From the NCBI GenBank assembly GCA_005799265.1, contig SYHD01000091.1, forward strand, positions 1 to 64,000: a stretch of DNA of 64,000 bases, read 5' to 3'. The notes below the pieces were generated by a model. It worked only from the letters and a program-made list of their open reading frames with translations, ran no database searches and was not told where the DNA came from. This DNA is from Planctomycetia bacterium. Its GTDB lineage: Bacteria; Planctomycetota; Planctomycetia; Gemmatales; Gemmataceae. The position numbers and the translations under genes were made by a program. Of the stretch, positions 24,297-45,740 are shown one piece after another. Each line of letters starts with the position of its first letter. Position 1 is the first letter of the stretch.

Positions 24297-24309
24297 GACA
24301 CGAACCGCC

Positions 24310-27853: not shown

Positions 27854-27879
27854 AAGCGGAGAGGGAGGGATTCGAACCC
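27854..27879. repeat. attL core (26-bp direct repeat)
   Basis: Identical to 45641-45666 and in the same orientation. It corresponds to the 3' end and T arm of a tRNA-Ser read on the minus strand, but no tRNA body follows it here, as expected for the element end distal to the rebuilt tRNA. Confidence 0.88.
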
Positions 27880-28064
27880 CTCGCAAATCTCCCGAAGAAC
27901 TCGCACTTCTTGAAAACGGCGGCGCAGATTCCGACGCACTCGCCGCCGCCGATCCCGATCTGGCGATAATCTACGACGCCTGGCCTGGTTTGCCAGGCCC
28001 GATCAAAGCCGCGATGCTCGCGATGGTTCGCACAACCGCGGCATCGTCGCCCGTCAAGGTGTGA
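27856..28064 (+). pseudogene. Orphan C-terminal tail of the element integrase
   Basis: The frame entering from attL reads SGEGGIRT, then PRKSPEELALL, continues through DPDLAIIYDAWPGLPGPIKA and ends VRTTAASSPVKV at 28064. This resembles the C-terminal tail of Planctomycete tyrosine integrases. It has no body of its own. The integrase at 44367 enters the right att copy in the same frame (also SGEGGIRT), so joining the two ends would give an integrase of 494 residues with this tail. It is best read as the displaced end of that gene. Confidence 0.75.
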
Positions 28065-28564
28065 CCAACCTGATTCAGCCTGGCCTTGGCAAATTCTTCG
28101 CGGCATTGCGTCAGAACGGCCCCGAACTGCAAAGGTCTACTGGTATGCAATGCCGCAAGTCATTGCCGTAGGCCGCGAACGAAAACCCCTCCCGAATTTC
28201 GCAACAATTCTTCTACAACTGGGTGTCGCGCGGAGTAGGTAACAAATAGAGGGCCGGCTGCCCAGCGTAGACGAGCCAGTGCCGCCAGCGTTTCACCAGA
28301 CGCAAGACAATTGAAAGTCGCGGATTTCTTTTACAACAAGCGGCCGCGTCGAGTAGGTCCCTATTAGGGGAACGATTTTGCTCAATTTGTACCCGCAGCG
28401 GACAACTGCGAGTCAGACGGCGTACATAACTGTTGGGTGCGACTCTATTGCCGAGATGCAACAACCTGTTCGAAAAATGCGATTCCCGGCGAGGCGATTC
28501 GTCAACTCGACGTTCAACGGGGTAGATACACGAATAGAGGGGTCCAATCGAGAGGAGGACAGAC
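28065..28564. other. Left-end region of the island, no gene seen
   Basis: 500 bp between the integrase tail and the small winged-helix gene. Frames on either strand lack a ribosome binding site or recognisable sequence. A leader and promoter for the downstream genes are expected here. Confidence 0.5.
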
Positions 28565-28813
28565 ATGGCCAAGTACATCTTCGGAGACGCCAAGCTCGAT
28601 ATCGGCGGTGTTGGCGTCGAGCAAGTCGCCAACGCCGTCCGTGAGCTGAGCAACGGCAAGGGAGCCGTCAAAGCCATCCAGGTCAGCCGCGCCCTTCACG
28701 TTTCGGAGCCAACCGTGGCCGCGCTTCTAGCCCAGGCCGAGTTGCTTGGCTTTGTGCGCCGGGTGGATGCGTGGCGCTGGATGCCGGGCGACTTGAGCGG
28801 TGTTGCTGCATGA
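28565..28813 (+). CDS. Small helix-turn-helix protein of the island
   Basis: 82 residues, ATG preceded by GAGGAGG. The segment AVKAIQVSRALHVSEPTVAA followed by LLAQAELLGFVRRVD is a winged-helix/HTH pattern. It probably binds DNA and may regulate the replication genes downstream. Family not recognised. Confidence 0.7.
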   Translation: MAKYIFGDAKLDIGGVGVEQVANAVRELSNGKGAVKAIQVSRALHVSEPTVAALLAQAELLGFVRRVDAWRWMPGDLSGVAA

Positions 28814-29134
28814 TGCAACAGAATTCTCCAAATTGCGGACAACTGCCTTTTTTCGAGCATACATATCCAGAGACGGAAGTTTGCAGATGCAATGGACCAT
28901 GATTCACGATGAACGAAGTCACCAAAATGGCACCGCGTGTATCTGGGATGCCGAGGGTGCGAACCAACGAATCCTCCTCGCAGGGGGCCCCGGGTTGCCG
29001 TCGATCACGGATCGATCGGCGGCAACTCATCTCTTCCGAGGAGCACGCCGCTTGGTACGGGCGACTGGCTCGATAGTTGATCGACCAGCCCCATTCACGA
29101 TCTAACTTTGAATTCAGCGCGAGGACGGAATTCG
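28814..29134. other. Gap between small HTH gene and primase gene
   Basis: 321 bp with lower GC than its surroundings. No convincing gene. It probably holds the promoter of the primase-polymerase gene. Confidence 0.5.
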
Positions 29135-31198
29135 ATGAGCCATCTCGAAATGGCGCTAGCCAGGCTGCGCGCCGGACTTTGCGTACTGCCGGCTCGGCTC
29201 GATCCCAAGATGCCGGCGCTGGCACGGTGGAAAACGTTTCAGGGACGATTGCCCACCGAGTCCCAGGTCCGAACGTGGTTTCCTGACGATCGGCCCATGT
29301 GCATCGTGGCCGGTGCGGTGTCAGGCCAGCTTGAAATGATCGATTTCGACGCCGGGGGCGAGGCGTTCGACGCATGGGCCGAGCTCGTCCGTACCGAGGT
29401 TGCAGGGCTTTTGGAACGCCTGGTCATCGAGCAATCGCCTTCGGGTGGGCGTCACGTTGTCTATCGATGCCAATTCGGCGTCTCGGCGAATATGAAGCTG
29501 GCACAGCGCCAGATCATCACGCCAAACTCGGATCCGATCACGCTCTATGGCAAGACGTATGTGCCATGCCGACGCGCCGATGGTCGGTTCGAGGTGATTC
29601 TAGCGCTGATCGAAACGCGTGGCGAAGGCGGGCTGTTTCTATGCGATCCATCGCCCGGCTATCGTCTTGTCCAAGGCGATTTCACTGCGATCCCAGATAT
29701 CACCGAGCCCGAACGCGAGATGCTCTTGGGAGCGGCCTGGTCCCTCGACGAGTTGCCCCCCGTCGCAGCGCCTGAGCCAGGTGGTGGCGAACCATGCGGC
29801 CGTCCAGGCGACGTCTTCAACGAGCGTGGCGATGTGCGCGCCGTCCTTGAACGCCACGGATGGTCATGCGTGCGGCGCGGCGAGAACGAGTACTGGCGAA
29901 GGCCTGGGAAGGAAACCGGCTGGAGCGCGACGCTGAAAGGCGGTGTCTTCTATGTCCACTCCGCTAACGCCGCCCCGTTTGAATCGAGTCGCGGTTATTC
30001 CGCGTTCGGCGTCTACGCCCGCCTCGAGCATAACGGCGACTTCGCCGGCGCTGCCGCCGCGCTGCGTGGCCAGGGATTCGGGCAATCACACAACGTGGAC
30101 GCCGACGTCGATCTCACAGCGATCACAGCAAAACCAAACGCCCAATCGGAACTGCTCGCCCGGAGGGTGCTCAACGTGACACGCGAACAACTTGCCTGGC
30201 TATGGCCCGGACGCATCCCGCTGGGAAAGCTGACGCTGCTCGCCGGCGATCCTGGCCTGGGCAAGTCGCTTGTGACCCTCGACATCGCCGCTCGCGTCTC
30301 GCGCGGTGCACCCTGGCCTGACAACACACTCATCGGCCAGCCCGTTGGCGAGGTTGTGCTGTTCAACGCCGAGGACGATTTGGGCGACACCATTGCACCG
30401 CGCCTCGACCTCGCCGGCGCCGATGATGCGAAGATCATCGCCATCGAAGGCGTTCAGCTCGTCGGCGCCGGCGGCAAGCCGACCAAGATGTATTTCTCGC
30501 TCGAACACCATTTGCCGCAGTTGGAGCGTGCGCTTCGCGATTGGCCCGACGCCCGACTCATTGTGATCGATCCGATCAGCGCCTACTGCGGCCAAACGGA
30601 CAGCCACAACAACGCCGAGGTGCGGGCGCTGCTCGCCCCGCTCGCGGACCTCGCAAGTCGAACCAAGGCGGCGATACTTGCAGTCACGCACCTGAGCAAG
30701 TCGGGCGGCCCGAAGGCGATCTATCGCGCGATGGGATCGCTAGCATTTGCCGCAGCATCGCGGGCCGTGTGGGCCATCGTGAAAGACCAGGACGACCCAG
30801 AACGTCGGCTGTTCCTGCCGGCCAAGCTCAATCTTGCCGTTAATCCCGACGGTCTCGCGTACCGCATCGTGGATGGTCGCGTTGCTTGGGAGCCCGAACC
30901 CGTCTCAATGCACGCCGACGACGCCTTCCGTGCCGAGTTGGATGGACCACAAAAACAGAAACGCATGAGGGAGCGCGACGAGGCGACTGGGTGGCTTCGG
31001 GATCACCTCGCCGCGGGGCCTGTGCCAGCAAAAGAGGCCATTGCCGACGGCAAAGAGAATGGCTTCTCGGAACGAACGTTGCGTCGCGCGTTCAAGGAAC
31101 TCGACGGGCGATCCCGCAAGGACAAGGATGCCGGCTGCTGGCGCTGGACGTTGCCTGACCATGATGGCCACGAAATTGGCCATGCCCCTGACACATGA
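29135..31198 (+). CDS. Bifunctional primase-polymerase / RepA-like helicase
   Basis: 687 residues from the ATG with GGACGG upstream; an ATG 9 codons earlier is less likely. The N-terminal prim-pol domain has the IDFD acid pair (D70, D72) and SPSGGRH (103-107). The C-terminal AAA/RecA-type domain has Walker A GDPGLGKS (371-378) and the Walker B region RLIVIDPISAY, then THLSKSG, as in RepA-family hexameric helicases. A short HTH-like end follows. This fusion primes and unwinds element DNA and is typical of satellites and plasmids. An unusual symmetric repeat lies 5 bp after its stop. Confidence 0.87.
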   Translation: MSHLEMALARLRAGLCVLPARLDPKMPALARWKTFQGRLPTESQVRTWFPDDRPMCIVAGAVSGQLEMIDFDAGGEAFDAWAELVRTEVAGLLERLVIEQSPSGGRHVVYRCQFGVSANMKLAQRQIITPNSDPITLYGKTYVPCRRADGRFEVILALIETRGEGGLFLCDPSPGYRLVQGDFTAIPDITEPEREMLLGAAWSLDELPPVAAPEPGGGEPCGRPGDVFNERGDVRAVLERHGWSCVRRGENEYWRRPGKETGWSATLKGGVFYVHSANAAPFESSRGYSAFGVYARLEHNGDFAGAAAALRGQGFGQSHNVDADVDLTAITAKPNAQSELLARRVLNVTREQLAWLWPGRIPLGKLTLLAGDPGLGKSLVTLDIAARVSRGAPWPDNTLIGQPVGEVVLFNAEDDLGDTIAPRLDLAGADDAKIIAIEGVQLVGAGGKPTKMYFSLEHHLPQLERALRDWPDARLIVIDPISAYCGQTDSHNNAEVRALLAPLADLASRTKAAILAVTHLSKSGGPKAIYRAMGSLAFAAASRAVWAIVKDQDDPERRLFLPAKLNLAVNPDGLAYRIVDGRVAWEPEPVSMHADDAFRAELDGPQKQKRMRERDEATGWLRDHLAAGPVPAKEAIADGKENGFSERTLRRAFKELDGRSRKDKDAGCWRWTLPDHDGHEIGHAPDT

Positions 31199-31202
31199 AA
31201 AG

Positions 31203-31280
31203 CTGGCCATCTTGGCAATGTTGGCCATCTTGGTCACCTTGCTGCGAGCCCAAGATGGCCAAGGTTGCCAATATGGCCAA
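31203..31280. repeat. Four 13-bp sites in perfect dyad arrangement (candidate origin or bidirectional terminator)
   Basis: Sites with consensus TTGGCCATCTTGG: direct copies at 31203-31215 and 31221-31233, inverted copies at 31250-31262 and 31268-31280. The pitch is 18 bp within each pair and all four are symmetric about 31241.5. The 31-base arms match at 27 positions with a 16-base spacer. Two further TGGCCA words lie in 31164-31183 at the end of the primase gene. Iteron-like spacing right after a replication gene suggests an origin; the convergent gene order also allows a terminator. Confidence 0.6.
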
Positions 31281-31330
31281 CATTGCAGCTTGCCAGTGTT
31301 TAGGGACGTGTTGGCAGTCTTGTCCGAGGA

Positions 31331-31687
31331 TCAGGATGGCTCCGTCGGCGGCTGTTGTTTCAGGCCGAGGGCTTGCTCGATGCGTTCCAGTCGCTCATGC
31401 AAGGCGAGCAGTGATACTTCGATTCTCGCCAGGCTTGGCATGGCAATCTCGCGAATCGCACGACGTGCGTTGATTCGTGTTGCCAGAATGTCCGAGATGC
31501 GGGCACGGATAGCATCGCTCTCGTCATGAAACTCCTTGGCTGAGCATAGAAGCTCGTTGATCACAAAGTCCGCGTCGGTGGCAACCGCTTGCTTCGGTTT
31601 CCTGGTGGGCGTGCATGTCCAGGCAGCGCCGTCGACGTAGGTGAACGTCGTGTAGTGAACGGGTCGCCCTCGTTTCTTCTTCGGCAT
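31331..31687 (-). CDS. Small island protein with AT-hook-like start
   Basis: 118 residues from the ATG with AAAGGA 7 bases upstream (a longer frame to 31756 lacks this). It starts MPKKKRGRPVHY, where RGRP matches the AT-hook core, and ends in a helical, coiled-coil-like stretch. I do not recognise the family. DNA binding is an inference from the hook. Convergent with the primase gene. Confidence 0.6.
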   Translation of the reverse strand: MPKKKRGRPVHYTTFTYVDGAAWTCTPTRKPKQAVATDADFVINELLCSAKEFHDESDAIRARISDILATRINARRAIREIAMPSLARIEVSLLALHERLERIEQALGLKQQPPTEPS

Positions 31688-31801
31688 GGGTGGTCCTTTC
31701 AAATAGGTACTTCCGGCGGGACGCCCAAAAAATGAGGCCCGCGGAAGGAATCGCAAGCATAGAGAGTGTTTGTTTCCTGCAACGGAATTGTCCGAATCGC
31801 C

Positions 31802-32212
31802 ATGACAAAAATCGAATCGAACTCCCGGCTACTTCTATTGGCCATTCTCGCCGAAATTGAGCTGTTCGCCGAGGTGCCAGACGACGCCTTCGGCGCCGGT
31901 GATCCGTTCGTGGTCGCCATGTGTCGCGATGGGGTGCCATTCACGCCGGCGCTCTGGCTCGGCGGTCCGCTTTCGCCGGCAAGGCGGATGGCACTCTCGC
32001 GAGCCGCCCGCCGGCTGGCGACGAAGGGGCAGGTCGTTCGCATTACGGAAAAAAAGCGAGATCGGGTGCGTCTCCTCGTCCCAACGCCGGGCGGTCTTCG
32101 GCGCGCTCTCGCGCTAGCCGGCGCCAAGGCGGACCGAGAAGCGATCTCCGAGGGCTTGTTCAGAACCAGCTGGGGGCGATCCCTGGCCAAACACCTGGGA
32201 GGAAAATCATGA
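31802..32212 (+). CDS. Winged-helix protein, first gene of a four-gene coupled set
   Basis: 136 residues. The C-terminal half (LSRAARRLATKGQVVRITEK then RDRVRLLVPTPGG) has the shape of a winged helix with a beta wing. The stop overlaps the next start (ATGA), so it is translated with the HExxH gene. The start ATG has only weak ribosome-binding sequence; a start 12 codons earlier is possible. Family unknown. Confidence 0.65.
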   Translation: MTKIESNSRLLLLAILAEIELFAEVPDDAFGAGDPFVVAMCRDGVPFTPALWLGGPLSPARRMALSRAARRLATKGQVVRITEKKRDRVRLLVPTPGGLRRALALAGAKADREAISEGLFRTSWGRSLAKHLGGKS

Positions 32213-33021
32213 AGTTGACTCTTTCGCCCACCGCCGTTCGGATCGACGCCAGCGAACCGTCGGCCAACAAATCGCCGCCGGTCGCGTTTCTGGCCAACGT
32301 GGCGCAACCGGTGGCCAACCTGTGCCACAAGGCGGCGGCGCTTTGCCAGCAGATCGCCCCCCACGACTTGACAGGCCTGCCGCTCTACATCTTGCCGCAA
32401 AGCGCCATTGCCGCCGAACTCGGCAATGCCGATTCGACCTACGGCTACACGATGGAATGGCTCGACTGGGTGCTTCGCGACCAGATCGGAGATGCATGGC
32501 GAGGTCGGGGCCCCTGCATCGTTGTCAACGACATCGCCATGAGCCAAGACCTCGGCGATTTCATCGAACCGTCCTTCCTGGCAACGACGATCCACGAGTT
32601 GGCTCATGTGTTCGAGCGCGACATGCGATTCGACACAGTGCCCAACATCTCCTCGGATCGCGTGCTTTTCGAACGCCTCCGACTGGCTCACGAGGTTCGC
32701 GAGCCGGTTCCCGAAAGCGAGCGAACCCAGACCTTCCATCAGCACGATCAGCGTTTCATCCGGGCCGTCCTGCACCTGCGCTTTCGAGCTGACCGCTATG
32801 GCGCGCTGCTCGCACGATCGTTGATCCTCAACGACGGGCCGGCCATCTTCGCTCGGCCGATCGATTACGAACTGGCTCTTCAGAACGAACCGGAGCGCAT
32901 GTTCGACGTCAGCCTCCGCGACATCATGGCCAACGCGCCGCCGCCGGCCTTCAGCCGGTTGTGGGCCGCTGAATTGGAATTCCTGACCCGCCATTCTCAT
33001 TTTTCGAAGGAGACGAAGTGA
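32209..33021 (+). CDS. Putative zincin metallopeptidase-like protein (HExxH)
   Basis: 270 residues, ATG overlapping the previous TGA by four bases, with GGAGGAAA just upstream. The zinc-binding HExxH is H129-E130-L-A-H133 in TTIHELAHVFERD. The third ligand is not obvious. No signal peptide, so cytoplasmic. The HELAH form recalls ImmA/IrrE-type peptidases that cleave repressors, and the neighbouring winged-helix protein would be a natural target, but this is inference only. It is followed by a coiled-coil gene with overlap. Confidence 0.65.
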   Translation: MKLTLSPTAVRIDASEPSANKSPPVAFLANVAQPVANLCHKAAALCQQIAPHDLTGLPLYILPQSAIAAELGNADSTYGYTMEWLDWVLRDQIGDAWRGRGPCIVVNDIAMSQDLGDFIEPSFLATTIHELAHVFERDMRFDTVPNISSDRVLFERLRLAHEVREPVPESERTQTFHQHDQRFIRAVLHLRFRADRYGALLARSLILNDGPAIFARPIDYELALQNEPERMFDVSLRDIMANAPPPAFSRLWAAELEFLTRHSHFSKETK

Positions 33022-33728
33022 TGAATCTTGCCACCCTGTTCGACAAGATCGCCGGCCGGCAGACGCAACGCGATAAGGCTCGCGTCGATGACTTCCGCGG
33101 CCTGGTCCGGGCCATCGCCGACGGCAAGGAGCCCGACGCCGATCGTGTGGACGCCGTTCTCCAAGAGTCCGGCAAGTCGCTCGAAGCGCTGCGCCAGGCC
33201 GTGGAGAAGATGCAAAAGCGCACGGCCATGAAGGCCGAGCTAGACACTGTGCCAAAGCTCGAAGCGGAGAAAGCGGAGATCGAGACGAAAATCGGTAAGG
33301 CCGCCGCGATCCTGAACGCAGCCGAGGCGAAATTTGAAGAGACGGCCAATCCGCTCCGCTGGCGGTTGGACGTGATCAGGAATCAGCTTCAGCAAGCATG
33401 GCCTTTGACCCAGGCCCTCGTGGACTCGTGCCCCTACGGGGAGCTAGTCGAGAGTGCCAAGAACATCGAGAAGGCCAGGACAGCGTCGCATGACGAGGCG
33501 AACCGGCTACGTCGCGAGATCGAGGAACACGTCAAGGCCATTCGCGAGTACAAGTCTCAAGCGGAAGCAGCAACCTACCGCCCACATCAGAACGAGTATC
33601 TGGACCGCGCCAAGAACCGCGAGAGTCGATTGGCCGAGACCCAGACGAAGCTGGCCGACGCACTCAAGCGGTTCGACGATTTGGAGAAACAGGGCACTGC
33701 AATCCGTGAGCAGATGCTGGCGCCGTGA
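33021..33728 (+). CDS. Coiled-coil protein of unknown function
   Basis: 235 residues, rich in Glu, Lys and Ala with long heptad-like stretches (about 40-110 and 140-230). The ATG follows GGAG and overlaps the TGA of the HExxH gene; a GTG one codon earlier is also possible. No recognised domain. It is probably a structural or partner subunit of the coupled set. Confidence 0.65.
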   Translation: MNLATLFDKIAGRQTQRDKARVDDFRGLVRAIADGKEPDADRVDAVLQESGKSLEALRQAVEKMQKRTAMKAELDTVPKLEAEKAEIETKIGKAAAILNAAEAKFEETANPLRWRLDVIRNQLQQAWPLTQALVDSCPYGELVESAKNIEKARTASHDEANRLRREIEEHVKAIREYKSQAEAATYRPHQNEYLDRAKNRESRLAETQTKLADALKRFDDLEKQGTAIREQMLAP

Positions 33729-33852
33729 TTGCCAGCCTCGACGACGAACGACTGGGCGGCGCTGTCGCCCGCAACGTTCTTTGACAACTCGGATATGTGT
33801 CAGAAGCCGCCGGGGCTTAGCGAACCCCGGCGGCTTGATCGCGAAGTCCCAA

Positions 33853-33879
33853 CGAGTAAATCTCGTCGCGATTTACTCG
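33853..33879. repeat. 10-bp perfect inverted repeat
   Basis: CGAGTAAATC and GATTTACTCG with a 7-base loop, between the coiled-coil gene and the likely start of the membrane protein gene. No T run follows, so an operator or mRNA hairpin is more likely than a terminator. Confidence 0.45.
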
Positions 33880-33917
33880 AACAAGATAGTGGACACAGTT
33901 TCCTGGAGTGCCTGAAT

Positions 33918-34538: not shown

Positions 34539-34583
34539 CTGACCTTGTCAGCTGAATCGCTGAATTCACGGTGCAGTGCTGAT

Positions 34584-37500
34584 TTACGCCGCCAACGGCC
34601 ACTCCGCGTAGATCGCCTCCGCCTGTTCCATGATCCGCTCGACGAAGATGTCGTAGTGCTCCTCCTTGACGCCACGCTTGCGTAGTACGCGCTTGACGGC
34701 GGCCCGCACCGCCGCCTTCACGTCTTCGCGATGCGGCTCGGTCCAATCGACCTTCAAGTTCTTTCGGATTGTCTGCACGATGTCGTGTATCAGGTCGCGC
34801 AGAAACGACGGTTCATAAAGATTGCCGTGATGCTTGGCCACGGCATCATAGAACGCGACCTCGTCGGGTTCCAGATTCAGGTCCGTGGCACGCTGGTCGT
34901 CGGACTCCATGTCCTTATGGATCTCGAGCAGCGCCTTCACGACCGCCGCGGCGTCGATTAGCCGATTGTGATAGCGCTGAAGCGTTTCTTCAAGTAGTTG
35001 CTGGAATGACTTCGCCTTCGCCAGGTTTTTTTTCTTCCGCAATTGAATCTCGTCCCGGACCAGTTTCTCCAGCAACTTCAATCGCAGGTTCGGCAGCGGC
35101 TTGTCCTTGAAGGTTTGCAGGAACTTGTCGTCCAGGATCGAGATATCGGCCTTCTCAAGCCCTGCGACCTTGAAGATGTCCACGACGCCCTCGGTCGCGA
35201 CGCTGTCGTCCACCAGATCACGGACGGCTCGCTCAACCTCTTTCACAGGCTTTTTACCCGGCATCGCTTTCATCACTTGTTTGCGGACGCACTGGTAGAA
35301 GATGATTTCATCCGCCAACTTCCGACACTGGTCCACCTGCTTGACCAGCAAGAATGAGGACGTTAGCCTCAGTTCAGCCTGAAGAAAGTGCTCGCGCCGG
35401 TCGTCATCCTCGGCCAGATGCCCGAACACAAAGGCGTACATGTCCTCCATGTCAATCCGCGACATTTTGCGCCAGTTGCCGTAGTTCTTGCCTTCCGGCA
35501 GGATGGCGCGAATCTCGGCAAGGCACGCCTCGAAAACCGGGACGGCCGTCTCCTCGACCTCCGGCGCCGGCTCGCCCTTGCCGCCGCCGGTCGTGTACTT
35601 GTTCGTCGCCTCGCGCAGTTCATCGCCGATGCCGATGTAGTCCACGATCAGGCCATGCGGCTTGTCCCGGAACACACGGTTCACGCGCGAGATCGCCTGT
35701 ATCATGTTGTGGCCTTGCATCGGCTTGTCGATGTACAACGTGTGCAGGCACGGGATGTCGGTGCCTGTCAGCCACATGTCGCAGACGATGACTATCTTGA
35801 ATGGATCGTCAACGTCCTCCATCCGTTCCTTGAGGGCCTTCCGCTGGCTCGACGTGGTGAAGTAGCCCTTCTCGCTCCACGCTGGTGGATCCTCGGCAAG
35901 GTTGGCGGTCATCACGATGCGAACCTCCGGACAGCCCGGCAGCGCGGTCAGCTCCTCGTAAAGGCGCACACAGTTTTGACGAGTCATGCACACGACCAGC
36001 GCCTTGCCGGCAAGCGTCGTGGTGCGGTCGAGAAAATGGGCCAGGAGGTCCTTCGCCAGAACCTCGACGCGTGGTTTGGCGCCTGCCGCCTCAGCCAGCG
36101 CCGCCCACTTTGCCTTGCGCCGATCGAGGTCATCAACCTCCTGTCCCTCGGTGATCTCTTTCAGAGCGGCGTCGATGTCGGACCGTGTCAGGCTCAGCTT
36201 GATTTGTCTTGGTGCGTAGAAGATCGGCACCGTCGCGTGGTCCTCCTGCGCCTGACGGATGTCATAGGAGTGGATCAACTCGCCGAAGACCTTGACCGTG
36301 TCCGCTCCACTGAAGCTGATCGGCGTGCCAGTGAAGCCGAGAAAGCTGGCATTGGGCAGAGCGTCGCGGAGCCAGCGCGCGTGGCCTTTCACGAAACCAT
36401 ATTGCGAACTGTGCGCTTCATCAGCAATAACGATGACGTTCGTCCGCGTGGACAGAATTGGATGCTCGACCTCGAGCGGGTTGCCGTCGCGGTCGGTCTT
36501 GATGCGGAACTTTTCGAGCGTCGTCAGGATGACCTCGCCCCCCTCGGTCTTCAAGAGCGTGCGCAGCTCATCGGTGCTCTGGGCGTGTTTGACGTCCCCG
36601 ACCAGGGCGCGGGCCGCGACGAACTGATCTTCCAGTTGTTCGTCCAGATTCACGCGATCCACCTGGATGACGAAGGTTGGGTTCTCCAGTTCCTTTGAGC
36701 GGCGCAGGATGCCGACCAGGAACACCATCGACAGCGATTTGCCCGAGCCGGTGGTGTGCCAGATGACGCCGATTTTCTTGTCCTTGCCGGCCGTCACCTT
36801 CTCGATGGCCTTCTGAGCAGCCAGGCGGACCGCGAAGAACTGGTGGTACTTGGCGCCTTTCTTCGTGATCTTGTCGTTGGCAACCTCGAAGACGATGAAG
36901 TCGCGGATGTATGCCAGGAGCCGGTCCTTCGCGAACAATCCCTCGATCAGCGTTTTCATGCTACCGGTGGTGTTTGCCTCGATCTCGAAGCCATCAATGC
37001 TCTTCCACGGAGCGCACCATTCCATCGCGGCCGGCCACATTCCGTGCAGCGTGGTCACGCCGTCCGACACGACCGTTAGGGCGTTGAAATCGAAAACCTG
37101 CGTGATCTCATTGCGATAGTGCTGCACCTGGTTATGGGCATCATCAACCGTCGGCTGATCCGAGTACGGGTTCTTCAGCTCGAACAAGACCAGCGGCAGC
37201 CCGTTCACAAAGATGAGGATGTCGGGCCGGCGATCATTCTGGCCACGGATCGGGAGTTGGTTGATTACCTGGAAGTCATTCCGCCCGGCTTCGTCCCAAT
37301 CGACCGGATGGATATGCCGATGCTCGGTGCGGCCGCCTGGCAACTCGACTTTCAACTCGAAGCCACGCACCAGCAGTTGGTGGAAGGCCATGTTACGGCG
37401 CATGGTATCCACGCCTTGCGGCCGGCTGATGCGGGCGACGGCCTCGTCCAACGCCTTCTCCGGCAGGTCAGCATAGCGCTTCGCCAGGTTGGCGCGCAGG

Positions 37501-37631
37501 ACATCCTTGAGAACGACCTCATCGTGCGGGCGGTCGATGTCCATCCCGAAGCGATGCTCATAGCCAAGCTGCTCGAGCCGCTCGATGGTCGTCAGCTCAA
37601 ACGTCGTCTCGGTGCCGCGGTGGCTGCTCAT
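34584..37631 (-). CDS. hsdR: Type I restriction endonuclease subunit R
   Basis: 1015 residues from the ATG with ACGGAG upstream; a frame to 37721 lacks a site. ATP-dependent translocase and nuclease of the HsdRMS complex. N-terminal nuclease: D137 (PDILIF) and E151-x-K153 (FELKNP). Helicase: Walker A TTGSGKS (294-299) and DEAH at 404-407 (ADEAHSSQYG), then GFTGTP and the late helicase motif QAISRVNR. The length fits the family. It is the last gene of the minus-strand restriction cluster, separated from hsdS by three small genes and an operator-like palindrome. Confidence 0.95.
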   Translation of the reverse strand: MSSHRGTETTFELTTIERLEQLGYEHRFGMDIDRPHDEVVLKDVLRANLAKRYADLPEKALDEAVARISRPQGVDTMRRNMAFHQLLVRGFELKVELPGGRTEHRHIHPVDWDEAGRNDFQVINQLPIRGQNDRRPDILIFVNGLPLVLFELKNPYSDQPTVDDAHNQVQHYRNEITQVFDFNALTVVSDGVTTLHGMWPAAMEWCAPWKSIDGFEIEANTTGSMKTLIEGLFAKDRLLAYIRDFIVFEVANDKITKKGAKYHQFFAVRLAAQKAIEKVTAGKDKKIGVIWHTTGSGKSLSMVFLVGILRRSKELENPTFVIQVDRVNLDEQLEDQFVAARALVGDVKHAQSTDELRTLLKTEGGEVILTTLEKFRIKTDRDGNPLEVEHPILSTRTNVIVIADEAHSSQYGFVKGHARWLRDALPNASFLGFTGTPISFSGADTVKVFGELIHSYDIRQAQEDHATVPIFYAPRQIKLSLTRSDIDAALKEITEGQEVDDLDRRKAKWAALAEAAGAKPRVEVLAKDLLAHFLDRTTTLAGKALVVCMTRQNCVRLYEELTALPGCPEVRIVMTANLAEDPPAWSEKGYFTTSSQRKALKERMEDVDDPFKIVIVCDMWLTGTDIPCLHTLYIDKPMQGHNMIQAISRVNRVFRDKPHGLIVDYIGIGDELREATNKYTTGGGKGEPAPEVEETAVPVFEACLAEIRAILPEGKNYGNWRKMSRIDMEDMYAFVFGHLAEDDDRREHFLQAELRLTSSFLLVKQVDQCRKLADEIIFYQCVRKQVMKAMPGKKPVKEVERAVRDLVDDSVATEGVVDIFKVAGLEKADISILDDKFLQTFKDKPLPNLRLKLLEKLVRDEIQLRKKKNLAKAKSFQQLLEETLQRYHNRLIDAAAVVKALLEIHKDMESDDQRATDLNLEPDEVAFYDAVAKHHGNLYEPSFLRDLIHDIVQTIRKNLKVDWTEPHREDVKAAVRAAVKRVLRKRGVKEEHYDIFVERIMEQAEAIYAEWPLAA

Positions 37632-37726
37632 GGCGTGGCTCCGTCTGCGCTGGTCGTAAGCTATTATCCTATCGCGAGTTATTCCTGCGCACGCTCGTTG
37701 CCGATCATCGCTGCACACCAATCTGT

Positions 37727-37762: not shown

Positions 37763-37885
37763 AGTTTTTGACGCGCACGGTTGACCGTCAAACGACCGAG
37801 CGCCCTTCCGTGATGTTGAGAAGTTCGCGGAAGGCGTACATGGCCGGCCGGCGCAATTGCAGGCTCGCAAGACCAACCGGAATGC

Positions 37886-38519: not shown

Positions 38520-38544
38520 CGGCGTCTCCTTGATTCTCCCGACA

Positions 38545-38808: not shown

Positions 38809-38830
38809 GATTAGCTCCCCGGATTGTATG

Positions 38831-38851
38831 TGTATCCCGGATAGGGATACA
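38831..38851. promoter_or_regulatory. Palindromic operator-like site
   Basis: TGTATCCC and GGGATACA with a 5-base spacer, 23-43 bp before the start of the 87-residue gene and just after hsdS. It could separate transcription of the small genes from hsdS. Confidence 0.5.
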
Positions 38852-38887
38852 TACATCATACGCGCGGGTTGCTCGGGCGGACAAGGG

Positions 38888-40165
38888 CTACGCGATGATT
38901 TTCTCGGCATCGCTGACGTGCAATTCGCCCGACAGCAAACGCGGCAACAGGGCGTCGCGGAGGGAGGCGAGGGTGCTCGATTGATGAATATTGGCGCTGA
39001 TCCGCCCGACGATGGCCCTTGATGCGACTGTATGTGCCGCAGCGACAGGCTCGGAGGGAATCACGATCTCGTACCGCGCGAGGTCATGCCAGCTAGTCCG
39101 GGGCATTTTCGTGCCTGTAGATCCGGAATCCGCATACTGCACCAACTGATCACTGGAGACGTGGCCCAAGGTCAATCCAAACCATGACTCGTGCGTCGGG
39201 GTGATGACCAGAATATCTGTCGAGCAGACGCCATCGACAGCCGCCACTCCGACCTTGTGGAAGTAGGGTCGAAGTTTCCCAAACAGCATCTCCCCTCTTT
39301 GAAACCGGAACTTATTGCTTGCGACGCGGTCGGATTGCGACCAGTCATCGAGTGCGATACATCGACGCGGCATATGCTCGAGTGCGATGTACGCTGTACC
39401 GGATGCAAGATCCGCTGGTGGCACACCTCGTCGGAGATTTTCTGCGATTTCACCAAGTCGGCCGACCCGCCACCCCTTCGGAATCGGCCCCAGCGGCGAG
39501 TCCTCGAAGCTGGCGGGGAAGAGCCGGGCGGTTTCGGCGGTCATGCCGATGGGCTGGCGGCCGGCGGCCTTGGCGGTCACGGGGTCGAAGTCCACGAACC
39601 ACGACTGGAACAACGCCCGCGCCAGCGCCTCCAGCGAATGATTCATCCGCCGGTTCAACTCGATCTTGTCGTCCAGCGTGCCGAGAATGCGGGCGATGGC
39701 TCGCTGTTCCTCCAACTCGGGCAGCGCCATCCTCAGTTCTCGTGCAGACCCGATGTTGAAGTGCTGTTGCACAGCGCCCACGATGTGGGCGTCGATGTGA
39801 TCTTGCGCCGCGGAGTTTATGTAGTAGGCGAGGAATCGCGGATCTAATTTTCTGCCGGGCCGAACAACGACGAGATCGGAACAATTCGCTTCCTGCAACC
39901 ACTCCGGGACGACAGCAGCGACGCCGGGCTTGCCAGTGCGAACGATGACCACATCCCCAGGACGCAAGCGCGACTTTTGAATCCGCTCGTGGAATGCTTT
40001 GCCGACGTATTTGAGATCGTTCTTGTTGATCCGATATGGTTCGATGTTCATCGAACGAAGGAACGGAATCCCGCGATCTACATACTCGGATGTCATGGGC
40101 CCCACGAACCCGACAGTAATCTCGTCCGCCACATCTGCGAGTTTCACCTGCCGCCACTCAGCCAT
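38888..40165 (-). CDS. hsdS: Type I restriction-modification specificity subunit S
   Basis: 425 residues from the ATG with GGAGGTGG upstream. Two target recognition domains are separated by the central conserved helix ELEEQRAIARILGTLDDKIE, which continues through NRRMNHSLEALARALFQSWF, and end with a second helical region (ATLASLRDALLPRLLSGEL). The subunit sets the DNA target of HsdM and HsdR. The start overlaps a remnant that reads as the end of hsdM, showing hsdM once preceded it directly. Confidence 0.93.
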   Translation of the reverse strand: MAEWRQVKLADVADEITVGFVGPMTSEYVDRGIPFLRSMNIEPYRINKNDLKYVGKAFHERIQKSRLRPGDVVIVRTGKPGVAAVVPEWLQEANCSDLVVVRPGRKLDPRFLAYYINSAAQDHIDAHIVGAVQQHFNIGSARELRMALPELEEQRAIARILGTLDDKIELNRRMNHSLEALARALFQSWFVDFDPVTAKAAGRQPIGMTAETARLFPASFEDSPLGPIPKGWRVGRLGEIAENLRRGVPPADLASGTAYIALEHMPRRCIALDDWSQSDRVASNKFRFQRGEMLFGKLRPYFHKVGVAAVDGVCSTDILVITPTHESWFGLTLGHVSSDQLVQYADSGSTGTKMPRTSWHDLARYEIVIPSEPVAAAHTVASRAIVGRISANIHQSSTLASLRDALLPRLLSGELHVSDAEKIIA

Positions 40166-40212
40166 TTCCCACCTCCTCCAGGATGCGGTCAATGGCCTTG
40201 TCGAGCTTCGCG
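40162..40212 (-). repeat. Duplicated hsdM 3' end (copy next to hsdS)
   Basis: Matches 41446-41496 with 2 mismatches by my count. On the minus strand it encodes KLDKAIDRILEEVGNG then stop, the same C-terminus as hsdM (KLDKAIERILEEVGNGG). Unit spacing is 1,284 bp. The two copies bracket the DUF1016 gene. Confidence 0.85.
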
Positions 40213-40231
40213 ATGGGCACAACAGTCGCGA

Positions 40232-41449
40232 TCACGTGCCACCGTCCTTTTTCTTGCGGCGGGGCTTCTTCTTCGGCTGGAACGCATCGCCCATTTCGGC
40301 TTCGATCTCCTCGACGGTCGGCAACGCCGAGCGCATCGCCTTCGGCAACGCCCGCGTCAGTTCATACGTCGAGATGCCGATCGGCTTGTCGATGCCTGCG
40401 AAGCTGTACTCGGCCAGGAGTTTGTCCTGGGTCTGGCAGAGGATCAGGCCGATGGTGGGGGCGTCGTTTGCATGCTTGAGTTGGTTGTTGACGACGTTGC
40501 AGTAGAAGTTCAGTTTGCCGGCGTACTCGGGCTTGAACTTGCCGGTCTTCAGGTCGATGACGACGAACGCCCGCAGCCGCAGGTGGTAGAAGAGCAAGTC
40601 AATGGAGAAGTCTTCGTCGCCGACGGTGAGGCGATATTGCCGGCCGACAAAGGCGAAGCCCTGGCCCAATTCGAGCAGGAACTTCTCCAGGTGCCGCACG
40701 AGTTCGGTTTCGAGTTCGCGTTCGAGGAACGGCTCGGTGAGCGTGAGGAAGTCGAAGATGTACGGGTCTTTCAGCGTCTGCTGCACGAGGTCGGACTGCG
40801 GGGCCGGAAGCACGGCCGCGAAGTTCGAGATGGCCTGGCCGTGCCGGGCGTGGGCCTGCGAGTCAATCTGCATTGCCAGGATGTTTCCGCTCCATCCGTT
40901 GGCGAGCGTCTGCTCCATGTACCAACGGCGAGTTGCGAGGTCTTTTACCTTCTGCATGAGGATGACGTGGTGATACCACGGGATCGACCAGAATGTCGAT
41001 TCCGGCAATTGTGCAAGTGGCGCTTGCACAATTGCAGTCCCCGTCATTTTTGCCACAACCGGTGGCGAAATTGGCGTCGGGGGCAATTGTGCAACAGGCT
41101 GCTGCACTTTTGGGGGATCGGGTAATTTCGCAAGTGGCGCTTGCGAAATTACCGCTGGATCGGGGTATTCACGGAAAAACCGGATCATCAAGTCGATATT
41201 CCGTTCGGAAAACCCCTTCAAATGCGGCAGTTCATTGTTCAATTCGGCCGCGAGCCGGGGAATCACGGCGGCGCCCCAGCCTTCCTTCTCCTGGCGGTCG
41301 TGGATCATCCGGCCAATGTCCCAATAGAGGCGGACGAGTTCGGAATTCACCGACAGTACGGCCTGCGCCTGGGCGGACTGGATGCGGCCCTTCACATCGG
41401 CGAGGAGAGTTGCAAAGTCGTTGGCTTTCGTCAGCGGCCTACCCGCCAT
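40232..41449 (-). CDS. DUF1016 (YhcG-type) PD-(D/E)XK nuclease-domain protein
   Basis: 405 residues. The ATG overlaps the end of hsdM by 11 bp. The N-terminal helical DUF1016 region (LLADVKGRIQSAQAQAVLSV, then LYWDIGRMI) is followed by a nuclease fold with acidic SIDLLFYH and VVIDLKTGKF motifs (D...DxK). Between them a Pro/Gln-rich stretch (APLAKLP, PVAQLP, APLAQLP) is encoded by palindromic DNA. Such proteins often sit in type I restriction loci; their role there is not settled. The gene appears inserted between hsdM and hsdS with a duplicated hsdM end. Confidence 0.87.
   Translation of the reverse strand: MAGRPLTKANDFATLLADVKGRIQSAQAQAVLSVNSELVRLYWDIGRMIHDRQEKEGWGAAVIPRLAAELNNELPHLKGFSERNIDLMIRFFREYPDPAVISQAPLAKLPDPPKVQQPVAQLPPTPISPPVVAKMTGTAIVQAPLAQLPESTFWSIPWYHHVILMQKVKDLATRRWYMEQTLANGWSGNILAMQIDSQAHARHGQAISNFAAVLPAPQSDLVQQTLKDPYIFDFLTLTEPFLERELETELVRHLEKFLLELGQGFAFVGRQYRLTVGDEDFSIDLLFYHLRLRAFVVIDLKTGKFKPEYAGKLNFYCNVVNNQLKHANDAPTIGLILCQTQDKLLAEYSFAGIDKPIGISTYELTRALPKAMRSALPTVEEIEAEMGDAFQPKKKPRRKKKDGGT
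41005..41035. repeat. Palindrome inside DUF1016 gene, copy 1
   Basis: 13-base perfect arms (GCAATTGTGCAAG) around the loop TGGCG. It shares loop and inner arm with copy 2 at 41122-41152 (arm GTAATTTCGCAAG). It encodes part of the extra Pro/Gln-rich linker. Confidence 0.8.
41122..41152. repeat. Palindrome inside DUF1016 gene, copy 2
   Basis: 13-base perfect arms around the same TGGCG loop as copy 1. The outer arm differs, the inner GCAAG-TGGCG-CTTGC part is shared. Between the copies are further partial palindromes. Confidence 0.8.
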
Positions 41450-43073
41450 TGCCCACCTCCTCCAGGATGCGCTCAATGGCCTTGTCGAGCTTCGCGCTCT
41501 CTTCCATCTGCGACCTGATGAGCGCCGTTAGCCTTGGCAGCTTCTCCTCGAAGGGCTCGTCATCCCCCTCGTCGTCGGCGGCGCCAACGTAGCGTCCCGG
41601 CGTCAGGGCATACTTGTGCTCGCGCACCGCATCGAGCGTCGCCACCTTGCAGAAGCCGGGCACTTCGAGGGAACGTCCGTCGCTCACGCTTCCGGCTCGG
41701 CGGAAGCGCCGATACACCGAGGCGACCCGTTCGATCTCCTCCTCCGAAAGCTGCTTCTGCTTGCGTGAGCCGGGGATCAGCGTGCCGAGCTTGCGGCCGT
41801 CGATGAACAGGATCTCGCCCTTGCGCTTGCGAAAGCCGCCGCCTCCGCCGCGGCTCTTCGACAGGAACCAGAGGGCACATGGAATCTGCGTGTTGGCGAA
41901 CAGCTGGCCGGTGAGCTGCACGACGCAATCGACGCAGTCGCCTTCAACCAGAGCCTTGCGTACTTCCAGCCGGGCCGTCTCGCTGTTGGAGAGTTCGCCG
42001 GTCGCCATGACGAACCCGGCCGTGCCGCCGTCCTTGAGGTGGTAGAGGAAGTGCAGGATCCACATTGTGTTGGCGTTGCGCGGCGACAGCGGCATCCGCG
42101 CCGCGCCGACGGTGAGCCGCGGGTCCTTGTCGGGCACGCGGTCGGCGCCCCAGCCCTTCTCCCCCTTCGAGCCGTCATTGAACGGCGGATTGGCGAGGAT
42201 GTAGTCGGCCTTTTGGCCGGCGTGCTTGTCGTCGAAGTACGAGTTGCCCAGCTCAATCTTGCCGTCGATGCCGTGGATGAACAAGTTCATGCGGCACAGG
42301 CGATAGGTGAAGTCCTTCGACTCCTGGCCGTAAAAAGTCAGGTTGCCGGAATGCTTCGTGAACAGATCGGACTGTACGAACATGCCGCCCGAGCCGCAGC
42401 AAGGATCGAGTACCACGCCACTGGTCGGTTCGAGCATGGCCACGAGTGTGCGGACGATGCTCGACGGCGTGAAGTACTCGCCGCCGCGCTTCCCTTCCGA
42501 GGAAGCGAATTCACCGATGAAGTACTCGTAGACGCGGCCAATGAGATCCTCGCCGCCGTGGTCCTGCTTGAAGATGTCCTTCGAGAACAGCCCGATGAGG
42601 CCTCGCACGTTCTCGGCGTCGAGGTTCGATCCGGCGTAGATGCGCGGCAAAAGGCCTTCGAGCTTGGCGCGGTATTTCTTCTCCAGCAGTTCGAGGATGT
42701 TATCGAGCTTCACCTTGATGTCGTCGGCCTGGGCCTGTTTGACGATGGTGTCCCAGCGGGCGTCCTCGGGCACCAGGAAGGCGCCGACGCTGCGATATTC
42801 GTCGGGGTCATTGAGCGCCTTCTTGTCGCCGTGGTAATCGCTCTTGGGGTCGGCGATGAGCTGGGTCAGTTCGGCCCGGCGCTTCTCGTAGCGCAGCGAC
42901 AGGAAGCGGAGGAAGATGATCGGCAGGACGTAACGCTTGTAGTCGGCCGGCTCGATGGACCCGCGCAAGTTTACGGCGGCTTGCCAGAGTTCCTTGGTCA
43001 GCGCCTGCACGCCGTTGCCGTTTGGCAAGGCGGCGTCCTGCGTCATGTTTTGCTTTCTTGCCGTTCGGGCCAT
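41439..43073 (-). CDS. hsdM: Type I restriction-modification DNA adenine methyltransferase subunit M
   Basis: 544 residues. N6-adenine methylase: N-terminal HsdM helical domain (WQAAVNLRGSIEPADYKRYV), SAM motif DPCCGSGG (223-230) and catalytic NPPF (295-298). AAAGGT precedes the ATG; a second ATG at codon 10 is possible. It starts the restriction cluster hsdM-DUF1016-hsdS-small gene-antitoxin-toxin-hsdR on the minus strand. Its last 15 codons are duplicated before hsdS. Confidence 0.95.
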   Translation of the reverse strand: MARTARKQNMTQDAALPNGNGVQALTKELWQAAVNLRGSIEPADYKRYVLPIIFLRFLSLRYEKRRAELTQLIADPKSDYHGDKKALNDPDEYRSVGAFLVPEDARWDTIVKQAQADDIKVKLDNILELLEKKYRAKLEGLLPRIYAGSNLDAENVRGLIGLFSKDIFKQDHGGEDLIGRVYEYFIGEFASSEGKRGGEYFTPSSIVRTLVAMLEPTSGVVLDPCCGSGGMFVQSDLFTKHSGNLTFYGQESKDFTYRLCRMNLFIHGIDGKIELGNSYFDDKHAGQKADYILANPPFNDGSKGEKGWGADRVPDKDPRLTVGAARMPLSPRNANTMWILHFLYHLKDGGTAGFVMATGELSNSETARLEVRKALVEGDCVDCVVQLTGQLFANTQIPCALWFLSKSRGGGGGFRKRKGEILFIDGRKLGTLIPGSRKQKQLSEEEIERVASVYRRFRRAGSVSDGRSLEVPGFCKVATLDAVREHKYALTPGRYVGAADDEGDDEPFEEKLPRLTALIRSQMEESAKLDKAIERILEEVGNGG

Positions 43074-43124
43074 CCCAGGGACCTTTCTGCATTCACGTGC
43101 ACGTTGAACATCAACAGTGGAACT

Positions 43125-43463
43125 TCACTCGTCGTGATCCACAATCCCGTCGCCAAGGTCATAAACCAGTTCGACAACCCGCACATCGAACCAGTCGAGA
43201 AACATCGTCAGATTGCGAACTCTGGGCCACGTACGGCGATCCATGCTCCAGCTATGAAGCTGTTCGTCGAAGATGGCACTCCAATGTTGCTGCACGATGG
43301 CGTCCCGATCAAGATCATCAACATCCGCGCTGACAAGGTAGACCGACGTCAGATCTTCATTGGACATCTCGTCGATCGGCGAACAGCCTTCAAGCGACCG
43401 CGCCCATGCCAGATAGGGCTCCTTGGGCACGACTACCATCGATGCTCGATTCACCGTTTCCAT
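43125..43463 (-). CDS. Small protein of unknown function upstream of hsdM
   Basis: 112 residues, acidic. It begins METVNRASMVVVPKEPYLAW, a pattern I associate with a small Planctomycete family of unknown role. 51 bp upstream of hsdM and in the same direction, so possibly the first gene of the restriction operon. No catalytic motif seen. Confidence 0.6.
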   Translation of the reverse strand: METVNRASMVVVPKEPYLAWARSLEGCSPIDEMSNEDLTSVYLVSADVDDLDRDAIVQQHWSAIFDEQLHSWSMDRRTWPRVRNLTMFLDWFDVRVVELVYDLGDGIVDHDE

Positions 43464-43655
43464 GTGGCCATCTTATCGACCGTTCGCTGTTTTGCGCCGG
43501 CCGCATCCGCCCGGCGTCGGTCCGAAGGGCTTGGTGCAGAATATCGAGGATTTCCGCTGAATTCGCTTGCTGTCTCACGGACCAGCTCGTAACTGACTGT
43601 CCTGCGCGGGGCGACGTCCGCCCCGGCAAACCACGAACCCGAAGGGAGAACGACG

Positions 43656-43973
43656 ATGACGACCACGACGAAGAAGGCAGCGAAGGTGAAGGTCAAGCGG
43701 GCGCCGAAGGCGAAAGACGTGAGCCACAATCGGAAGCCCGCCAAGAAGCTGAGCCAGATGGCGGCGGCATTCGAGGTGCTCCGTGCCGCCGGCGAGCCGA
43801 TGACTTGCAAGGCAATGGTCGAGGCGATGGCCGAAAAGAAGCTCTGGGCTTCGCCGGGCGGCAAGACGCCTGAGGCCACGTTGTACGCAGCAATCGCGCG
43901 CGAGATCGCGACCAAGGGCGACGAAGCCCGGTTCCGCAAAGCCAGCCCGGGGCATTTTGCCGCACGGGTTTGA
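43656..43973 (+). CDS. HARE-HTH winged-helix domain protein
   Basis: 105 residues, ATG after GAAGGGAG. A Lys/Ala-rich tail (1-32) precedes a HARE-HTH-like domain (KLSQMAAAFEVLRAAGEPMT to the end) with the conserved LYAAIAREI helix. These domains occur in chromatin proteins and in bacterial restriction and RNA polymerase delta contexts, and may read DNA or its modification. It is divergent from the restriction cluster and upstream of the excisionase-like gene. Confidence 0.75.
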   Translation: MTTTTKKAAKVKVKRAPKAKDVSHNRKPAKKLSQMAAAFEVLRAAGEPMTCKAMVEAMAEKKLWASPGGKTPEATLYAAIAREIATKGDEARFRKASPGHFAARV

Positions 43974-44043
43974 TTGGCCTCACCACGATGCAACGGTCCT
44001 GGCGTTCAGGGCTGTTGCATTCCACTTCAAAAGGAGCGACACC

Positions 44044-44274
44044 ATGTTGAACGAAAAGCCGATGAACAACGTTGCAACGCCCCTGGCGCTACGGCCTCGT
44101 GAAGCGGCCAAGGCGCTCGGAATCTCGCCACGCCTGCTCTGGCAACTCACGAAGGACGGGCACATCCCGTGTGTGCGCGTTGGCGGCGGCAAGCGCAAGA
44201 CCGTGCTTTATCCGCTCGCGGACCTGCAGGCCTGGTTGACGCGGCAAGCCGAAACGGCAACACACGCCGCCTGA
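44044..44274 (+). CDS. Excisionase-like helix-turn-helix protein
   Basis: 76 residues, ATG preceded by AAAAGGAG. LRPREAAKALGISPRLLWQL with a basic wing (VRVGGGKRKTVLYP) is the MerR-like HTH_17 fold used by excisionases. Its position 92 bp before the integrase supports a role as directionality factor. A longer frame to 43957 lacks a site. Confidence 0.8.
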   Translation: MLNEKPMNNVATPLALRPREAAKALGISPRLLWQLTKDGHIPCVRVGGGKRKTVLYPLADLQAWLTRQAETATHAA

Positions 44275-44294
44275 AAACCCCTCGTGGCCACGAA

Positions 44295-44319
44295 TCGCGC
44301 CGGTTGAAAGCCGGCGCGA
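44295..44319. repeat. 9-bp inverted repeat between excisionase and integrase genes
   Basis: TCGCGCCGG and CCGGCGCGA with a 7-base loop, 21 bp after the excisionase stop. No T run follows. It may attenuate transcription into the integrase gene or be an excisionase site. Confidence 0.45.
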
Positions 44320-44366
44320 ACGTGGCCATCCTCGACGATTAGATCACTACAAGGAGAAACATCAAG

Positions 44367-45740
44367 ATGGCCAGTATTTCAACCAACTCCGATGGGCAAC
44401 GTCGCATTCTGTTTGTGAATGCGGACGGGGATCGCAAGACGATCCGGCTGGGAAAGTGCGACCGCAAGACGGCTGAAAGCATCTGCCGACACGTCGAACA
44501 TATGCTCTCGGCGAAAAGAACCGGGGATCCGATCAAGCCGACCACCGCAGCCTGGCTCCGTGAAGTCGGCGCCAAGCTGCGCGATCGGCTGGCGGTCGTT
44601 GGCTTGGTCGATGCGCCGAAGCGAATGGTGCTGGGAGAATTCCTGAAGAACTACGTCCTCTCCCGCCCGGACGTGAAGCCCGCGACGTTGGAGGTCTGGC
44701 AACAGCCTTGCCGGAACCTGACCGAGTTCTTCGGCGCGGACAAGCCACTGCGGACAATCACGACTGGCGATTGCGACCAGTTCAAGGCCTGGTTGCTGAC
44801 GCAAGAACTGGCGGCGGCGACGGTGGCCAAACGTCTATCGTTTGCCCGGACATTTTTGCATGTGGCCCGTAAGCACAAACTCATTGACGAGAATCCGTTC
44901 TCCGAGGTCAAGATCCCGACGGCAAACGTGAGTGCCCGACAGCGGTTCATCGACCGCAATGCGATCCAGAAACTGTTCGACATGGCGACCCCGACCTGGC
45001 GAACGATCATCGCCCTGGCTCGGTTCGGCGGGCTCCGGTGCCCGTCGGAGGTTCTCTCCCTCGAATGGCGGCACATCGATTGGCAGCGCGGACGGATCAC
45101 CGTGCCATCGCCCAAGACCGATCGCTATGACGGGAAAGCGAGCCGCACCATCCCGTTGTTCGCGGACCTGCGCCCCTATCTTGAGGAGGCGTTCGAACTC
45201 GCCGAGCCGGGCCAGACGCACGTGATCGGCGGCGACCACCTGGCGAAGGCCACGAAAGCGACGGGCTGGAAAGGATGCAACCTGCGGACGACGTTCGGCA
45301 AGTTGATCACGCGCGCCGGGCTGGAGCCGTGGCCACGCTTGTTCCACAACCTGCGTTCGAGCCGAGAGACCGAACTGCTCGAAGAGTTCCCGGTTCACGT
45401 CGTCGCGTTGTGGATGGGGCACGATGCCAAGGTGAGCCTGAAGCACTACGCCCAGACGACCGACGAACATTACGACCGCGCCGCGAGCGGCGCAGAATCC
45501 GGCTCACTCGGAGCGCAAAAGACGGCGCAGCGGCCAGCGGGAGGGAATGGTGGCGAGTCGCACGAGGTCGGCACAAACGACGACGGGGTGGCGAGTTGTG
45601 CCACTCCGTTCCAGGTAAAACATCTTAATGAACAAATGCCAAGCGGAGAGGGAGGGATTCGAACCCTCGGTTGGCTTTCACCAACACCGGTTTTCGAGAC
45701 CGGCACAATCGGCCACTCTGTCACCTCTCCAACTGGTTGA
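44367..45740 (+). CDS. Tyrosine recombinase/integrase of the island
   Basis: 457 residues, ATG after AAGGAG. Catalytic set: R224 (GLRCPSE), H327-x-x-R330 (FHNLRSS), H352 (WMGHD) and Y361 (LKHYAQT). From residue 426 the frame enters attR (SGEGGIRT) and its last 24 residues are the antisense of tRNA-Ser, so the present C-terminus comes from the chromosome. In the excised circle the same frame would continue into the tail now at 27880-28064. The enzyme integrates and excises the element at the tRNA 3' end. Confidence 0.92.
   Translation: MASISTNSDGQRRILFVNADGDRKTIRLGKCDRKTAESICRHVEHMLSAKRTGDPIKPTTAAWLREVGAKLRDRLAVVGLVDAPKRMVLGEFLKNYVLSRPDVKPATLEVWQQPCRNLTEFFGADKPLRTITTGDCDQFKAWLLTQELAAATVAKRLSFARTFLHVARKHKLIDENPFSEVKIPTANVSARQRFIDRNAIQKLFDMATPTWRTIIALARFGGLRCPSEVLSLEWRHIDWQRGRITVPSPKTDRYDGKASRTIPLFADLRPYLEEAFELAEPGQTHVIGGDHLAKATKATGWKGCNLRTTFGKLITRAGLEPWPRLFHNLRSSRETELLEEFPVHVVALWMGHDAKVSLKHYAQTTDEHYDRAASGAESGSLGAQKTAQRPAGGNGGESHEVGTNDDGVASCATPFQVKHLNEQMPSGEGGIRTLGWLSPTPVFETGTIGHSVTSPTG
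45641..45666. repeat. attR core (26-bp direct repeat)
   Basis: Identical to 27854-27879. It spans the 3' end, acceptor strand and part of the T arm of tRNA-Ser, so integration leaves the tRNA intact at this side. It also codes for integrase residues 425-433 on the plus strand. Confidence 0.9.
45644..45730 (-). tRNA. tRNA-Ser (anticodon CGA)
   Basis: 87-base class II tRNA. Acceptor GGAGAGG pairs with CCTCTCC, the anticodon loop CTCGAAA gives CGA, the variable arm is long (GTTGGTGAAAGCCAAC-like), and the T arm contains GGTTCGAATCC. Discriminator G, no CCA encoded. It is the integration site of the island. Confidence 0.95.

Follow-up and report, generated by a model that had tools for sequence, protein, structure and literature searches.

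Planctomycete islands whose integrase gene appears to contain attP and to exchange its C-terminal tail on integration

What becomes of an integrase when the crossover that inserts its element falls inside its own reading frame? The question is raised by an island in a 64,000-nucleotide stretch of DNA from a planctomycete of the family Gemmataceae (the whole stretch is called the window here), in which an integrase frame runs into a tRNA gene at one end and a coding piece that would continue it lies stranded at the other. The integrated island extends over 17.8 kb from attL to attR (27854..45666) and is bounded by a 26-bp direct repeat, AAGCGGAGAGGGAGGGATTCGAACCC, whose left copy (the attL core, 27854..27879, plus strand) and right copy (the attR core, 45641..45666, plus strand) are identical at 26/26 positions. 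Since the target gene, a tRNA-Ser(CGA) found intact by ARAGORN, occupies the minus strand at 45643..45730, the repeat is the 3′ end of this tRNA gene in antisense, with the attR core lying both within the tRNA gene and inside the integrase frame, and the attL core being a copy of the tRNA 3′ end. A 22-bp core occurs in two copies only in the 6.47-Mb assembly, namely attL and attR; further copies with up to three mismatches were found neither within the 64-kb window nor in any of 100 shuffles. The island thus has the layout recognized in Islander-type searches, an intact tRNA gene at one end, a 3′ fragment at the other, and an integrase within. An empty site was sought in the genus and none was seen, the flanks of the island never being found together.

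The integrase in its integrated form has 457 residues (44367..45740, plus strand; Pfam Phage_integrase and Phage_int_SAM_5). An earlier sequence-only reading held that it crosses the attR core as SGEGGIRT and takes its last 24 residues from the antisense of tRNA-Ser, that the same frame at attL runs into a 61-residue tail with no integrase body ahead of it, and that joining the two repeats yields a single frame of 494 residues. All three points are borne out on the sequence: no frame break occurs at the predicted junction, and the predicted 494-residue junction is identical wherever within the 26 bp the crossover falls. The orphan tail (27879..28064, plus strand), which is in frame after joining, consists of 61 codons (27879-28061, PRKSPEELALL...SSPVKV) and a stop ending at 28064. 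It yields no match in a Pfam search with the tail alone; profile searches place it in a conserved family of integrase tails, which upholds the suggestion that it is akin to native planctomycete integrase ends. Here and in the relatives described below, attP lies within the integrase frame and integration joins an in-frame 3′ end to it, the arrangement that defines the Mx8-type class.

A search with the joined 494-residue protein, as the earlier reading had proposed, found a single-gene counterpart in nature. Two IMG/VR contigs (L196 and L197) carry a 492-residue integrase with 67% identity across residues 1-494 of the predicted circle form; its gene contains GGGATTCGAACC, no tRNA was found near it, and L197 continues for another 9 kb beyond the tail. 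A third contig (L198) carries the integrated form at a tRNA-Ser(gct). The idea that L196 and L197 are circular permutations of one circle was rejected: the two have 26.3 kb in common but show no wrap. Natural full-length integrases of a different subfamily, with the same tail helix (see below), are encoded on two MAG contigs (L171 and L172), in which no end overlap was found. An IMG/VR search with the helix as a DNA pattern returned an orphan tail and a second match that is likely due to chance, and the L172 integrase has no relative in IMG/VR; plasmid records contained no match to the joined integrase, and phage records gave three weak matches, to the body only. In the L172 integrase (G053:C66, 656 residues), the CGCTTAC-like repeats of the body and the GGGCGTAC-like repeats of the tail are unmatched, and body and tail possibly come from different elements.

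How widespread is this arrangement? With the joined protein as query, relatives were found in 67 of 95 Gemmataceae genomes, a set representing the family of the window, with membership judged from named members; tail profile A1 matches 62 of the same 95 genomes, and a shorter helix profile (A3) matches 87 of 199 sampled Planctomycetia genomes, spread over at least 11 families. Named relatives with such elements include Gemmata, Limnoglobus roseus and Fimbriiglobus. Most integrases in the retrieved Gemmataceae regions end in antisense tRNA (Ser, Val, Leu, Met, Glu, Asn, SeC), so that the integrases annotated in these genomes bear antisense-tRNA C-termini and the full-length enzymes need to be rebuilt from both island ends. 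The assembly of the window itself holds two contigs whose integrase 3′ ends are nearly identical but whose terminal residues differ, since the frame enters tRNA-Ser(gct) on one contig and tRNA-Ser(gga) on the other; another of its contigs (C101) has a further orphan tail directly 3′ of an RGEGGIRT core.

The frame rule was examined by matching tails to downstream tRNA genes by identity alone (14-72 bp) and reading the phase afterwards. Integrase and tail were in phase in 15 of 16 pairs of a first set, which includes two pairs (G010 and G052) with shortened integrase frames and one exception (G011) without a long in-phase frame, and in 7 of 8 pairs of a later set from other families. Pooled, 22 of these 24 Planctomycetia islands are in frame against one third by chance (P about 4e-9), and the in-phase pairs involve 12 tRNA types (Ser, Leu, Met, Arg, Glu, Asn, Gln, Asp, Val, Phe, Lys, SeC). 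Of 88 tails, 68 have an antisense T-loop motif in the 250 nt upstream, as opposed to 9.6% of control windows; in 66 of the 68 the frame is open, without a stop, from motif to tail, and the motif is used in all three phases. The in-phase frames of other subfamilies are tyrosine recombinases as judged by eye (HxLR and Y motifs), and in one locus (L191) a primase precedes the integrase. Nearly the same orphan tail follows a different upstream sequence at each of three loci (L175, L188, L189), in one case an aminotransferase-like frame, and these elements may use non-tRNA targets.

Coding DNA on both sides of the core contains matching repeats. In the window, one copy, a putative P arm site, lies in the integrase linker (45487..45506, plus strand; half-sites 45488-45494 and 45500-45506), with an extra CGGCGCA nearby at 45523-45529, and the other, a putative P′ arm site, lies in the tail (27919..27938, plus strand; half-sites CGGCGCA at 27920-27926 and CGACGCA at 27932-27938), matching the first at 17 of 20 positions. 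For each paired island, the 300 nt before the core were compared with the tail and the best 20-bp match was set against codon shuffles. The best match had 16-20 identities, which at most 1 in 60 codon shuffles reached in 15 of the 16 first-set islands, with the first copy starting 110-163 nt ahead of the core and the second mostly 39-64 nt beyond it; the later set has a repeat pair in 6 of 8 islands, at 134-178 and 40-58 nt. The match is not significant in 3 of the 24 islands, L172 is without a matching pair, and for the window's own pair the significance is moderate (matched by 3 of 200 shuffles in one test and by 0 of 60 in another). A copy comprises two half-sites, in most cases set 12 bp apart, as in CGGCGCA-N5-CGGCGCA, and other half-site types are CGGTGCA, CGACGCA, GGGCGTAGTGCC and TTGCCCATCAT, the half-site sequence being common within an island and different between groups of islands.

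That these repeats merely reflect a repeated peptide (GGAESGA) was rejected, the two copies being out of frame with each other in 10 of 22 islands (12 islands have relative frame 0, 7 have frame 1 and 3 have frame 2). Because the copies occur in all relative frames, the constraint would be on DNA and not on peptide; and because the repeats are island-specific, flank the core and ignore the reading frame, they look like lambda-type arm sites. Given the lambda-Int-like model described next, their simplest reading is that they are probably arm-type sites P and P′ embedded in coding DNA, in which case part of the tail-coding DNA would also have a DNA-level role. In five islands (the window, G052, G054, G025:C9 and G066) the distance between the arm copies, measured in the joined gene, is exactly 219 bp. 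At one locus (L047, G052:C1) the arm-like repeat at the integrase C-terminus is expanded in tandem and read as repeated GAKSGAPAARNPAHQRREIRRTS.

An AF2 model is confident for residues 1-388 and leaves residues 389-492 unstructured, for which reason the tail is regarded as an appendage outside the catalytic domain; the structure alignment left out orphan tails, which were misplaced when aligned with whole integrases. The best PDB matches in Foldseek are lambda Int, over about 380 columns. Pfam, PDB profiles and Foldseek identify catalytic tyrosine-recombinase and core-binding domains of lambda type, the N-terminus forms a beta-beta-beta-helix in the model and aligns with full-length lambda Int, and putative arm-like repeats are present. 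Judged from the model, the integrase body alone would be a complete lambda-like integrase. In one MAFFT alignment (A2) the tail helix AWPTLPEPIRAG is set against the integrase box II stretch PWPRLFHNLRAS, probably by chance.

If the body looks complete, what is the tail for? Its hallmark is a helix, AWPxLPExIRxAILALV, that lies past the putative P′ arm site. Across 89 distinct tails the helix is conserved and its codons vary, with leucine at position -7 in 87 of them, encoded by six codons; the conservation of W and of the following L and P is partly by construction, because these residues served as anchors. Helix pN/pS values are 0.33-0.48, lowest in the closest pairs. These patterns show purifying selection on the tail helix at the protein level, in keeping with a role in the unintegrated element: since the helix has no body in the integrated state, selection would act most simply on the free form. 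In degraded islands, the signature of selection could be partly a relict.

The remaining cargo bears on what kind of element would harbor such an enzyme. Downstream of the orphan tail are a small ORF of 82 residues (28565..28813, plus strand) without a Pfam or PHROGs match and a primase-helicase (Prim-Pol and AAA_25; 29108..31198, plus strand; Pfam, PHROGs). On the minus strand, Pfam identifies a type I restriction enzyme subunit R (HsdR, 34584..37721), a type I specificity subunit (HsdS, Methylase_S; 38888..40222), a YhcG/DUF1016 PDDEXK nuclease (40232..41476) and a type I methylase subunit (HsdM, 41439..43073). Between the restriction genes and an HTH_17 gene lies a HARE-HTH domain protein of 105 residues (43656-43973, plus strand). 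The HTH_17 protein (44044..44274, plus strand; Pfam HTH_17, 4e-11), small and encoded ahead of int, is likely the excision factor, and relatives of the ORF spanning its domain occur in L197 and L198. Among the tested ORFs none was recognized as a virion or conjugation gene, save for a weak tape-measure-like match (phrog_4704, E 6.6e-4). From its gene content, the island looks like a replicating integrative element, probably bearing defence functions.

Exchange of an integrase C-terminus is a principle already known from Mx8, one of what are described as very few such integrases (PMC4701971), and the Islander search singles out the attP-in-int arrangement with C-terminus exchange as an exception (PMC4383910). 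In Mx8, attP is reported to lie inside the integrase coding sequence and the C-terminus to be exchanged (Tojo 1996; Magrini 1999; via PMC6070905 and PMC4701971), integration replacing 112 C-terminal residues by 13, with the prophage form less active than the phage form (PMC4701971). Like the planctomycete family, Mx8 has a tyrosine integrase whose coding sequence includes attP, with a core that resembles an antisense T-loop, but it lacks a matching repeat pair under the same test, and, unlike Mx8, the planctomycete family has one conserved tail helix common to many elements in many tRNA genes. Homology to the Mx8 integrase was rejected, the best match having E 0.45 for the body and E 0.3 for the tail profile. 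Archaeal suicidal integrases of the SSV type likewise have the att site in the integrase gene, which integration splits, but there the gene is cut into non-functional parts (PMC8371274), whereas here the part at attR keeps all three integrase domains, and the family was accordingly not placed in that class. In mycobacteriophage BPs, attP also lies in a gene and a C-terminal change reports the integration state, but it is the repressor gene that changes, and the end found in the viral form is a degradation tag (PMC4557955). The rumA-integrating streptococcal ICEs also exchange the integrase C-terminus on integration, but with a serine integrase, a protein-coding target and a change of frame (PMC4701971).

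Phage lambda Int shares the three-domain fold and has arm-like sites on both sides of the core, but the int coding sequence of lambda does not enclose attP. We found no paper on this planctomycete family of tail-exchanging integrases in the open-licence literature searched. Two points appear to be new here, on the sequence evidence: arm-like half-sites in coding DNA, and a selected tail helix that would be joined to the integrase only in the unintegrated state. The family supplies many natural before/after pairs, the control of integration direction can be tested by setting the two forms of the enzyme, both encoded in nature, against each other, and candidate arm-site specificities can be read from sequence.

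We favor, as a somewhat probable account, that the int gene contains the whole of attP, that integration leaves a complete body at attR and strands an activity-raising helix at attL, and that loss of the helix stabilizes the insertion. Along the gene the order would be a P-arm site in the linker that follows the catalytic domain, a core equal to the 3′ end of the tRNA gene, a P′-arm site, and last the short conserved C-terminal helix. One gene would thus provide, while the element is a circle, both the full-length enzyme with its helix (494 residues here) and a complete attP, its N-terminal domain binding the repeats and the helix raising the activity of the free form for integration. Recombination of attP with the tRNA gene would then produce the complete body with an arbitrary antisense-tRNA end at attR and leave the helix-coding piece at attL; loss of the helix would keep the insertion stable until excision, driven by the HTH_17 factor, restores the gene. 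A state-dependent function of the tail is likely; a switch biasing integration versus excision would rest on the Mx8 precedent, and its direction is one that we infer.

Other readings of the tail fare less well. It could be a helix by which the free element's integrase docks onto a hypothetical partner, such as replication or transfer machinery, with no direct effect on recombination: the same helix sits on clearly different integrase subfamilies, as expected with a common partner, and the element encodes its own primase-helicase, but replication proteins differ between elements, and we consider this unlikely. It is also improbable that the tail is a stability tag, by which the free integrase would be proteolysed via its C-terminus and integration would remove the tag as in the BPs repressor (PMC4557955); such a precedent exists, and the tail is hydrophobic and C-terminal, but its final residues lack conservation and lie at a variable distance from the helix, unlike an ssrA-like end, which disfavors an ssrA-like degron. 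Least probable is that no switch exists, attP and int overlapping for compactness and the tail codons being kept for the P′ arm site with an end devoid of effect, for although arm-like repeats lie in tail DNA and the body alone looks complete, the helix, which is the most conserved part, is located past the arm site, and its conservation is that of a protein whose codons vary freely.

The account of a helix stranded by integration may extend to planctomycete elements across the class, and this we hold tentatively, as possible rather than probable: one exchangeable tail, carried by several integrase subfamilies and located just past arm-type sites, would report the free state and be selected only when unintegrated. 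If so, integrases could swap tails where islands are mixed or lie in tandem.

Two observations concern the left flank of the island. A second tyrosine recombinase of 447 residues (26383-27726, minus strand) starts 127 bp left of attL, and a second element may have used the same neighborhood. On another contig of the assembly, a segment (G000:C197:4867-5395) joins two left-flank pieces that are separated in the window (about 22863-22964 and 24038-24299) beside another orphan tail, and there may be a rearranged second element left of attL.
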